From positions 3,537,205 through 3,601,204 of the forward strand of contig VZDJ01000056.1 in NCBI GenBank assembly GCA_008694505.1: DNA of 64,000 nt, read 5' to 3'. Both the position numbers and the translations under genes were made by a program. This stretch comes from Cyanoderma ruficeps. Lineage: Eukaryota; Chordata; Aves; Passeriformes; Timaliidae. Shown piece after piece: positions 44,482 to 56,355 of the stretch (its first letter is position 1; every line of letters begins with the position of its first letter). Under the pieces are notes generated by a model, which saw only the letters and a program-made list of their open reading frames with translations, made no database searches and had not been told where the DNA came from.

Positions 44482-44533
44482 ATGAGCCAGATGACAAAGG
44501 GAATGGAGTGCCCTGCCCGTGAGCTGCTGCAGG
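44482..44533 (+). CDS. Tentative first coding exon of the SRPK-like kinase
   Basis: ATG at 44482 with an upstream in-frame stop at 44455, 17 codons (MSQMTKGMECPARELLQ) and a strong donor GTGAGT at 44534. It ends in phase 1, exactly what the next certain exon (47069, entering with two bases) needs. Joining gives ...[14 protein letters not shown], where SRPKs have GGYHP before the kinase domain. It lacks the acidic DYCKG-type segment of SRPK1-3, so another upstream exon could be the real one. Total coding length with this exon is 1152 nt (383 aa). Confidence 0.4.
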
Positions 44534-47068
44534 GTGAGTCTGTGCTGGGCCCTGGGGCTCAGAGCCCCGCCGGGGCTACGTGTGTGCTGTGTGCTGTGAC
44601 TTGCAGGGGTGCTGTACTCAGCAAGGGCTTGTGGGTCTGTGGTGGTGCAGAAGCTGAAAGTGTGTATTGCCCTGGTGAGTTCTGACACTCCAAAGGTCCA
44701 GGGGTCATAAGGCATAACTGGTGTTGGGCAGCTCTGTACGCTGTTCCATGCAGGTTGGGTGGAGGAGTCCAGGCCAGACGTGAAGCTTCACTCCTTGTCC
44801 ATGGCTCTCACAAACCAGGCACGAGCAGTTCTTGGGCTGAAGTTCTCTGAGCTAGTCCAGGCCTGCAGCAATTCAGTGGGTTCTGCACAAAATAGTTGGA
44901 ATGACAAAAGCAAAGTAAGTTGTATTTAATGTGAAAGTGTCAAGAAATGAAGGATTATTGTCCTTTATCACAAAGCTTAAAAAAGTGCATTTCACTTTCC
45001 TGTACCAAGTTGCATAGCAACACTCTTCATCTTTTGCCTGTGCTTCCATCCAGAGAGGGTGGATGGAGGTAAATCTTGCATGCCTAAGGATAGACTTGTC
45101 TTGCTTCTGCAGCAACACGACCACCAGGGCCTAGTGAACTGCCCAAGGGCTAGGATGAGTCTTACACTTCGGGTCCTATTTTCTCACTGAAATATCCTAC
45201 TACTTGAACACTCCACCGAGGGAAGAAGCTGTAGAACTCCCATCTCCACACATTCATGAGTTTTCCTTTGGCAGGTGAATGGTAAGCCACATAATTAAAA
45301 ATTGCTCGCTCTCAGCTCAGGCCCTGCTGTCCTCATGATGTGAGTGAAGAAGGCTCAGGCAGATGCTGGTGGTGCAGGAGTGTGTGAGGGTACTGATGAG
45401 CTTAGTCTGTGCACAAATAAGGAAAATTTTGATTTCAGATCTGTTTCATAGGTAAGATGTCAGTGAGTATTTGCTGTAAAGAGTGGCCACACAGACATGT
45501 AGCATCCGGGAAGTTTGTACCGAAAGAGACTGATTCTGAACAGCATAAATGCAAAGGTTAGATGTGTAGAAATGTGAGGAGGGGGAGGCATTTTGAGATC
45601 CTTTCAGACTTCTCTCCAGGCTTGGGTCAACAGAGTAACGTTGATCTGGCACTTTGGGTTTTCCCTGACAGGATGAAAGTCTTGAGCCCAGTCCAACTCT
45701 TAACTAGAACTGTGTTGGCAGCTCATTGGGTGCCCAAATGCAGGCTGTGCCTCTGGCTGGCGTGCTGGGAGAGGAACATCAGCATGTGGAAAGAAACGTT
45801 AATGTTTTGAGGAATTCAAAACATTGAGTAAAACAGGTGCTCTGTCTCAGCACCTGGAAGATGTTAGTGTTCCAGAACAAATCCCTGCCACCAGCACTGC
45901 CAGCCCTCTATAACTATTTCTGAAAATCCTCTGGTTCAGATGAGTTCTTAGCTTTAGTGACCCGATTTGGAGAATTTAAAGTTCAATATTTCTACCTGTG
46001 ATAATGGTCTATGGGTATTACTATCACCTGTCCCAAGCTCTTGATAGTGTGTGTTACCGTGAAGCTTCAGCTGTACAGCAAATGACATTTCCAAATTATG
46101 AAAGGCTGGGTTGGGAGTGCCCCAGCTACTGTGACTTAAATCTGTATTTCATTAGCAACATGGGCTGTGGGCTGCTATGTCAGGTGACCAGTACTGAAGC
46201 CAGACCTACATTGGTGGTGCAGCACTGGGGGACAGCAGTTGGATCAGTCTGTCTGTGCTGTCTTGGTGTTTATGCTTTGGGCTGTCATAGTAACAAACCC
46301 CCGGAGCAGCCCCTTGCCAGGATGTCCTGTGGCCTTGCTGGGATGTCACAGGATGGTCAGTGATAAACCCGTGCTCCAGCTCCAGGGCTGGACTGTGGGC
46401 AGAGGAGCAGCACTGTAGTGTTTAGAATGCAAGTTTTGTTTCACACCCCTCTGGAGCAGGAGCCTTCTCCTGCCAGCCAAAGCCCAAATTCCCTCCTCAG
46501 CCAGGGTAGGGAGGGAGTGTTTTCCCTGGCTGTGGGAGGGGAATCCCACAGACCCCGCTAAGCCCCTGAAAATACACACTAGGAAACCTGAGACTCCCAC
46601 CTGGCCCTGGCCTGGGGCCAGCCTGCCAGCTTTGCTCTTCTGAACTCTTAAAATAATCCCTGTTTCCCTGAAGTGCCAAAAGCATTTGTAACAGCCTGAC
46701 TCCAAGAGCTGCTGAAGGGAATGGGAAGGAAAGGGGTGAGGGCACAGCAGAGGTGTGGCCATCCTGCCGCTCTCCAGCTCTCTTGGAAGGAGTAAAGTGC
46801 TGAAGATCACTCGTGCACCACTGCCTCCATCCCCTCGTGCCAGGATCTGCTGTGCTCTAGGGCCATGGAGGAGCAGGTGCAGCAGGAGATGCCATCAGCC
46901 CAGCACACAGATCAGTCCTTGGGCATGAGGCTCCAGAGATGAGATCATGTCAGGCTCTTCCCAGGCTAGAGGAGGCCACTGGGACCTGTCAGGCTGTCCT
47001 CAGCTGCTCGTTCAGTCTAAGAGCATTTAGAGATCTCACTAATATCTCTTGGTGATGGTTTTCCACAG
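44534..47068 (+). other. Kinase intron 1 (if the 44482 exon is right)
   Basis: 2.5 kb with no convincing exon. An ATG at 46865 opens a short frame (MEEQVQQEMPSAQH) but has no donor in the required phase. Confidence 0.5.
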
Positions 47069-56000: not shown

Positions 56001-56355
56001 GCACCCGACAGCTAAGCCTGCAAGGTGGAGCGCAGGTGGAGCTTATAGAGATAATTCCGAGAAGGCAAAGATGTGTCAGGATGCTTTGGGTTAATTCTGA
56101 GGGGAGGCGCGGCAGCCTCAGCCGTGCAGGGGTGACTGAGGCGCTGGGCCCACTCTGTTTCTGCCAGGCGCGCTCCTGCGGCTATCCCGGCTCTTCCCCC
56201 GCAGCCTCCCCGGCATCCTGGCGGACCGGCACGGCTGGACACCGCGGGAGGCGGCCGCCTTCGCCGCCTTCCTGCTGCCCGCGCTGCACTACGCGCCCGA
56301 GCGCCGCGCCAGCGCCGCGCAGAGCCTGCGGCACGCCTGGATCACCGCACCGTGA
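47069..56355 (+). CDS. Compact SRPK-family SR-protein kinase, intact kinase domain
   Basis: Serine/threonine kinase of the type that phosphorylates RS domains of splicing factors. Exons: 47069-47177, 47658-47745, 49924-50011, 50256-50362, 52224-52386, 53607-53692, 54136-54243, 54676-54745, 54829-54921, 56168-56355 (TGA). All junctions keep frame. Nine-tenths of the introns are GT-AG and one is AT-AC. Landmarks: glycine loop [12 protein letters not shown], lysine in VAVKVLK, alpha-C glutamate in ETAQDE, catalytic loop HADIKPEN (HTDIKPEN in most SRPKs), metal site [19 protein letters not shown], and C-terminal FLLP...[13 protein letters not shown]. Every catalytic residue is present. The spacer between the HAD and DLG motifs is only about 50 residues, against well over a hundred in SRPK1-3. 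It is a divergent paralogue near SRPK3. The exact orthologue name is not certain. Confidence 0.9.
50012..50255 (+). other. U12-type AT-AC intron in the SRPK-like kinase
   Basis: The intron starts ATATCCTTC, the full minor-spliceosome 5' site, and ends CCCAC. A branch-point-like TCCCTAAC lies at 50238-50245, its second A 11 nt before the 3' end, and there is no long polypyrimidine tract. Splicing C at 50011 to ATACG at 50256 restores [13 protein letters not shown], which matches the uninterrupted SRPK core NG.H.C.VFEVLG. No GT-AG pair gives that frame. A TGA at 50234 excludes the nearby AG as an in-frame acceptor. Confidence 0.88.
50363..52223 (+). other. Kinase intron before the catalytic-loop exon (1.9 kb)
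   Basis: Runs from GTGAGA to GCCCAG. No additional exon is needed: ...KKSLQQ joins directly to VLAGLHFLH, as in other SRPKs. No repeat or RNA gene recognised. Confidence 0.8.
52387..53606 (+). other. Kinase intron at the spacer position (1.2 kb)
   Basis: This is where SRPK1-3 carry exons for the long, poorly conserved spacer. I found no phase-compatible, protein-like exon here, which supports true loss of the spacer. A short low-complexity exon could escape detection by eye. Confidence 0.6.
54922..56167 (+). other. Last kinase intron (1.25 kb)
   Basis: Runs from GTAAGA to CTGCCAG. AT-rich until about 56.1 kb, where CpG density rises sharply. No exon recognised. Confidence 0.8.

Follow-up and report, generated by a model that had tools for sequence, protein, structure and literature searches.

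A kinase gene downstream of plexin-B1

We analyzed a stretch of 64,000 nucleotides from the genome of the passerine bird Cyanoderma ruficeps (contig VZDJ01000056.1, positions 3,537,205 to 3,601,204), which we will call the window. The window contains the gene for plexin-B1 (PLXNB1) and, downstream of it and in the same orientation, a gene for a protein kinase of the SRPK family. The coding region of the kinase runs from 44,482 to 56,355 on the forward strand in 11 exons and encodes 383 residues, with a single stop codon at the end and no stop within. From the stop codon of the plexin it is 5.4 kb to kinase exon 1 and 8.0 kb to exon 2. The first-pass annotation of this DNA had described an intact SRPK-like kinase, in the same orientation and 5-8 kb after the plexin-B1 stop, and the exon model agrees with it, including both ends at 44,482 and 56,355. 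We considered and rejected the possibility that the gene is a pseudogene.

There are two candidates for the first exon (all coordinates are on the forward strand). Exon 1a (44,482 to 44,533, MSQMTKGMECPARELLQ) ends at the donor CAGG/GTGAGT, and 10 of its 17 residues are shared with the start of P0013 from the hummingbird Calypte anna. Exon 1b (46,865 to 46,910, MEEQVQQEMPSAQHT) encodes 15 residues that are identical to those of P0001 from the finch Camarhynchus, and its donor has AT instead of GT: across 46,865 to 46,916, the border reads ACAG/ATCAGT. The exon 1b type of start (MEEQVQ) is held by 12 of the 120 records in our first match list. Either the window's kinase relies on exon 1a, farther upstream, for its start, or the donor base of exon 1b may be an assembly error or a polymorphism.

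The exon model places exon 2, with the glycine-rich loop, at 47,069 to 47,177; exon 3, with the catalytic lysine and the glutamate of helix alpha-C, at 47,658 to 47,745; exon 4 at 49,924 to 50,011; and exon 5 at 50,256 to 50,362. The HADIKPEN catalytic loop and the start of a short spacer lie in exon 6 (52,224 to 52,386), and the end of the spacer and the DLG motif lie in exon 7 (53,607 to 53,692). Exon 8 (54,136 to 54,243) encodes the activation and P+1 loops (QTQSYR), and exon 9 lies at 54,676 to 54,745. The docking-groove glutamate of helix alpha-G is in exon 10 (54,829 to 54,921), and the codon of the docking-groove aspartate spans the junction of exons 9 and 10. Exon 11 and the stop codon (56,168 to 56,355) are inside the edge of a CpG island. 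The functional residues in exons 3, 6, 7, 8, and 10 were located by residue alignment.

Nine of the ten introns are GT-AG and one, between exons 4 and 5 (50,012 to 50,255), is AT-AC. It begins with ATATCCTT, contains the branch-like motif CCCTAAC, and ends with CCCAC, so we classify it as U12-type, following the U12 consensus. This intron is plausibly an old feature of the SRPK family, because SRPK1 is among the human genes that are listed with U12 introns in a preprint (PMC12637451). Two other papers, PMC9881141 and PMC9501576, yielded nothing of use on minor introns in SRPK genes. Mis-splicing of this gene by some annotation pipelines is evident from at least two database models (P0100 and P0105), which run into the start of the AT-AC intron (GFHILL...).

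The mapped part of PLXNB1 lies at 3,407 to 39,064 on the forward strand. A sema-domain-like exon, recognized by eye in the list of open reading frames, lies within the frame at 3,407 to 4,951, and the stop codon (39,062 to 39,064) follows ...VENKVTDL. The last seven coding exons (about 36,000 to 39,064, joined by eye) are identical to human plexin-B1 at 236 of 264 residues. These C-terminal exons score 517.8 bits against human plexin-B1 and 370.8 bits against plexin-B2, in a library of solved structures that covered these two plexins and left out plexin-B3. Two AATAAA signals from a motif scan (42,783 to 42,816, forward strand, at 42,783 and 42,811) mark the probable end of the PLXNB1 transcript. 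On the other side of the kinase, kinase exon 11 runs into a strong CpG island at 56,000 to 58,500, which has a G+C of 0.72-0.83 and, over most of its length, a CpG observed/expected ratio of about 0.9-1.1. The island probably marks the start of another gene; reading the open reading frames at 56-58 kb by eye, we recognized none. An Rfam scan of the 64-kb window gave no matches.

A fourth clade of SRPK proteins

We searched for relatives with three proteins (from the window, from axolotl, and from horn shark), took the best 120 matches of each, and fetched 304 distinct proteins. The window protein found birds, turtles, squamates, and one salamander; the closest of the matches listed is the finch protein P0001 (95% identity over 96%). 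The axolotl protein added frogs, salamanders, caecilians, short forms from sharks and skates, and SRPK1-3, and the horn shark protein added further cartilaginous fishes and many SRPK1-3. Against human SRPK1, the window kinase reaches 372.8 bits (E = 1.4e-110), and against Pfam's Pkinase 121.1 bits. SRPK chains rank first by sequence and also, with DYRK behind them, by fold. We considered chance matches and rejected them as an explanation.

We built a careful tree of 61 rows with IQ-TREE, from 59 of the 304 fetched proteins and the window protein; one protein (P0197) was cut in two to serve as the outgroup. All 304 proteins and the window were placed with FastTree only. In the careful tree, the 20 tetrapod rows, including the window, form one clade (support 100/100), and they join 9 cartilaginous rows in a larger clade, also at 100/100. 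This clade, which we will call the fourth clade, holds birds, turtles, squamates, amphibians, and cartilaginous fishes. The 15 SRPK3 rows form a separate clade (97/97). The deep splits are weak for SRPK1 (90/76) and SRPK2 (73/46), and separate shark rows are present for both. The trees thus place the split of the fourth SRPK before the divergence of cartilaginous and bony vertebrates. Also, eight alignment columns have a state that is found in 25-29 of the 29 fourth-clade rows and in at most 1 of the 30 SRPK1-3 rows.

The approximately unbiased (AU) test rejects three arrangements: one that places the sharks with SRPK3 (p = 0.0003), one that nests the kinase within sauropsid SRPK3 (p = 0.0002), and one that puts the tetrapod copies with SRPK3 without the sharks (p = 0.0001). 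From a reduced tree of 47 rows we removed the window, five other birds, four squamates, the outgroup, and two fast rows (P0219 and P0171). The remaining, slower amphibian and turtle rows still group with the sharks (100/99), and the AU rejections are kept (p = 0.002 and 0.0027).

In the FastTree, 166 rows (150 tetrapod and 16 cartilaginous) are in the fourth clade, with a support of 100; the remainder are 42 SRPK3, 64 SRPK1, 29 SRPK2, and 4 elsewhere. The turtle SRPK3 rows P0162 and P0204 and the fish row P0171 fall outside the SRPK3 node. The careful tree, which did not include P0204, places P0162 and P0171 within SRPK3.

Twelve species among the matches listed have records of both kinds, one in the fourth clade and one in the SRPK3 group. 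These comprise four reptiles (fourth clade/SRPK3: Carettochelys P0102/P0162, Python P0119/P0254, Liasis P0120/P0257, and Sceloporus P0113/P0293) and eight frogs (Bombina P0130/P0180, Spea P0123/P0199, Xenopus tropicalis P0142/P0202, Rhinophrynus P0132/P0255, Mantella P0135/P0262, Leptodactylus fuscus P0136/P0231, Pelobates P0134/P0283, and Gastrophryne P0139/P0243), with Carettochelys P0162 counted as SRPK3 from the careful tree only. Within a species, the two kinds are 51-53% identical (5 of 5 pairs compared), versus 72-74% when human SRPK3 is compared with that of frog or turtle. The sea turtle Caretta caretta has a second fourth-clade sequence, P0116 (411 residues), beside P0103, on a contig that differs in length; it may be an allele, a second assembly, or a second copy.

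Among the matches listed, the 22 proteins (of 304) that are named as mammalian are all in SRPK1-3, and none is in the fourth clade. Neither ray-finned fish nor lungfish appear in the fourth clade among the best 120 matches of each search, and no crocodilian is named in any of the three lists.

The database names of fourth-clade proteins are mostly SRPK3 or SRPK3-like, including the chicken protein. The first-pass annotation had predicted both this mislabelling and a type of SRPK distinct from SRPK3 in several classes, and the tree, the AU tests, and the species with both kinds bear it out. It had also named two findings that would count against a separate type: that the kinase nests in SRPK3 or that it is a recent, lineage-specific copy. 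Orthology to SRPK3 is rejected by the AU tests (p = 0.0002 and 0.0001), and the neighbor is plexin-B1. A recent copy is rejected by the cartilaginous fishes in the same clade.

A conserved active site without the large spacer

We numbered residues as in human SRPK1, anchored by hand on D564; at 515, 548, 564, and 571, this gives the same letters as PMC11809128 names. The catalytic lysine, glutamate, aspartate, and asparagine and the aspartate of DLG are kept in 29/29 fourth-clade rows. So are R518 and the two acids D564 and E571, of which the acids are named as docking-groove residues (PMC11809128). The third acid of the groove, D548, is retained in 1 of the 20 tetrapod rows, and glutamate takes its place in 9/9 cartilaginous rows. 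At R515 in the P+1 loop, all 20 tetrapod rows have glutamine and all 9 cartilaginous rows have arginine. W606 is similarly changed in 20/20 tetrapod rows and kept in 9/9 cartilaginous rows. R561 is kept in 20/20 tetrapod rows and in 1/9 cartilaginous rows, and K615 is arginine in 15 of the 20 tetrapod rows.

SRPKs are recognized by a large internal spacer that splits the catalytic core, and the window kinase does not have one. Between HxDxKPEN and DLG, there are 37-56 residues in 20/20 tetrapod rows and 53 in all 8 of the 9 cartilaginous rows that could be measured. In SRPK1-3, this spacer has 156-313 residues in 26 of 30 rows. The four short ones (55-62 residues) are two human crystal constructs (P0154 and P0156), an SRPK1 record from a bird (P0161), and a fish SRPK3 on a long branch (P0171). 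P0171, from Mastacembelus (414 residues), is in the teleost SRPK3 group, and its spacer of 55 residues is possibly an independent loss or a model error. Since the window kinase lacks the large spacer, we call it a spacer-less variant that descends from the SRPK family. The missing spacer goes beyond the first-pass annotation and is, in our judgement, the most interesting change in the protein.

With SRPK1 and SRPK2, the window kinase shares the catalytic core, the docking groove, and the fold, but it is only about 45-47% identical to them, it lacks their large chaperone-binding spacer, and tetrapod members of its clade have glutamine for Arg515. SRPK3, which is linked to PLXNB3 (on the X chromosome in human), is the probable sister of the window kinase within the family, and both adjoin a plexin-B gene. 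Still, SRPK3 forms a separate clade, with nesting rejected by the AU test; it has PLXNB3 rather than PLXNB1 as its neighbor; it has the large spacer; and it is 45-48% identical to the window protein (15/15 rows). The short SRPKs that cartilaginous fishes have, such as P0157, P0153, P0158, and P0219, go by the names SRPK3, SRPK3-like, or SRPK2-like; they are in the same clade as the window kinase and are likewise spacer-short (53 residues). They differ from the bird protein in that they are 46-49% identical to it, keep Arg515 and Trp606, and mostly do not have Arg561.

The AlphaFold model of the finch ortholog P0001 is fair (mean predicted local distance difference test score of 69 and predicted template modelling score of 0.77). 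Its best Foldseek matches are SRPK1 and SRPK2, with a root-mean-square deviation of about 6 A for the best SRPK1 matches.

Predicted function

We predict that the fourth SRPK would phosphorylate arginine/serine-rich proteins via the usual docking groove. The change of Arg515 to glutamine in the P+1 loop may alter its choice of substrates. The spacer of SRPK1 is reported to bind Hsp70/90 complexes and to anchor the kinase in the cytoplasm, and deletion of the spacer is associated with nuclear accumulation (PMC9818988). Because this anchoring spacer is missing, the fourth SRPK is expected to be mainly nuclear. The same source describes a disulfide-held loop of the spacer as a prerequisite for the activity of SRPK1 (PMC9818988), so a spacer-less kinase must become active in another way.

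The fourth SRPK would be regulated by its expression level, plausibly in muscle. One of the core genes in a study of chicken breast muscle was LOC770936, a transcript named "SRSF protein kinase 3-like" (PMC11667886). Chicken SRPK3 is also among the muscle genes in PMC5237145, where it is given with no sequence detail. The chicken SRPK3 record P0065 falls in the fourth clade with both IQ-TREE and FastTree. LOC770936 and P0065 are likely the same gene.

Alternatively, and whatever its origin, the fourth SRPK might no longer be a general SR-protein kinase: the groove has changed in tetrapods, and the protein might have another substrate or act as a scaffold. The substitutions at 515 and 606 in every tetrapod row, the arginine at 615, and the near-complete loss of D548 would fit this proposal, as would the modest identity (51-57%) between the window protein and 8 amphibian members of its own clade. 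But the catalytic residues that we tested, D564, E571, and R518 are kept across the clade, and R561 is kept across its tetrapod members. We think that such a change of function is unlikely, though not far-fetched.

Origin of the fourth SRPK

SRPK1, SRPK2, and SRPK3 are listed as one family of ohnologs from the two early genome duplications, or 2R (PMC4042849), which leaves room for a fourth member. The two duplications would have copied a plexin-B gene and an SRPK gene together and left the fourth SRPK beside PLXNB1. SRPK3 is near PLXNB3 in frog, mouse, and human (PMC13264567), and a snake record from the SRPK3 group (P0270) that is labelled plexin-B3 hints that the pair is also present in snakes.

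A published parallel that fits is the gene pair SLC6A8a and SLC6A8b. From the gene order of human 3p21, we take SLC6A8a to share a region with PLXNB1. In chicken, SLC6A8a is on chromosome 12 with USP19, LAMB2, CCDC71, and QARS1, whereas SLC6A8b was not identified; in mouse and human, SLC6A8a was not identified, and SLC6A8b is beside ABCD1, PLXNB3, and SRPK3, as it also is in frog (PMC13264567). Taken with the present data, SLC6A8a, PLXNB1, and the window kinase, on the one hand, and SLC6A8b, PLXNB3, and SRPK3, on the other, look like one duplicated segment with reciprocal loss. Loss of the fourth SRPK in mammals is probable, and birds may instead have lost SRPK3.

We are fairly confident that the window kinase is a fourth SRPK paralog (working name "SRPK4"), active-looking and without the large spacer, that split from SRPK1/2/3 before the divergence of cartilaginous from bony vertebrates, most likely by 2R, and that was kept beside PLXNB1. 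In the account of the first-pass annotation, which we share, the kinase and SRPK3 would be a pair from genome duplication; the sister support is 80/91 and alternatives survive the AU test.

Several points weigh against this reading. The sisterhood of the fourth clade and SRPK3 rests on that support of 80/91. In the reduced set, two other arrangements survive the AU test: SRPK1, SRPK2, and SRPK3 together with the fourth clade outside (p = 0.33), and SRPK3 outside (p = 0.077). The deeper order is therefore not firm, and a duplication unrelated to 2R is possible. The branches compared are long. Among the matches listed, the 42 SRPK3 rows of the FastTree include none named as coming from a bird or a cartilaginous fish (one row is unnamed), so it is the tree and the AU tests that assign the shark copy to a fourth type and not to a deviant SRPK3. 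The absence of the fourth SRPK from mammals rests on the three lists of best 120 matches, and its linkage to PLXNB1 was seen in this window alone. The authors of PMC13264567 attribute SLC6A8a and SLC6A8b to a local duplication before tetrapods, and they report both on one chromosome in trout (16) and in pufferfish (3). Finally, given the changes at R515, W606, and R561, the choice of substrate may differ from that of other SRPKs, and the structure model, being only fair, adds little beyond an SRPK-like fold.

Some of these points would suit an ancient SRPK paralog from a duplication before or outside 2R, with its place beside PLXNB1 due to an ancestral tandem of SRPKs or to accident. The surviving topology with the fourth clade outside, the weak deep splits of SRPK1 and SRPK2, and the published view of SLC6A8a/b as a local duplication all lean this way. 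However, the best tree pairs the fourth clade with SRPK3, the linkage in the window is to the plexin-B paralog that is expected from 2R, and SLC6A8a/b are split in parallel between chicken and mammals (PMC13264567). We consider an origin outside 2R to be improbable.

It is very improbable that the kinase is simply the avian SRPK3, fast-evolving after its locus moved beside PLXNB1, with the fourth clade due to hidden paralogy or long-branch attraction: the database names, the lack of named birds or cartilaginous fishes among the listed matches in the SRPK3 group, and the long branches would fit, but this is contradicted by the twelve species with both kinds, by the AU rejections with and without the fast rows, by the unchanged grouping of the slower amphibian and turtle rows, and by the low identity of the two kinds within a species.

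Implications

In a search of the open-access literature (SRPK3 or SRPK4 with plexin, synteny, birds, or vertebrates), we found no description of the fourth SRPK type as a separate gene. A 2026 review states that SRPK1, SRPK2, and SRPK3 make up the family, and it mentions SRPK4 in passing, in a passage that does not define the name (PMC13118852). A further paper that came up for SRPK4, PMC11974692, is on Arabidopsis. Similarly, a chicken paper counts SRPK1, SRPK2, and SRPK3 and borrows the mammalian role of SRPK3 in the splicing of MEF2C (PMC8369645).

Given the fourth SRPK proposed here, a fuller history can be sketched, which we offer tentatively and would not bet on as a whole. Jawed vertebrates might have started with four SRPKs. 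The one linked to PLXNB1 would have lost its spacer before sharks and tetrapods parted and become constitutively nuclear. Mammals would have kept SRPK3 and birds this kinase, each losing the other gene, and the "SRPK3" of poultry muscle would be this enzyme, with a splicing job that is either convergent or inherited.

If the bird gene is indeed a different ohnolog, then transferring the role of SRPK3 to it is unsafe, and the gene names used for birds, reptiles, amphibians, and sharks need to be corrected. The locus may also show clearly how duplicates are lost reciprocally, in parallel to SLC6A8a/b. And with a natural SRPK that has no spacer, the proposed role of the spacer in cytoplasmic anchoring can be tested directly.

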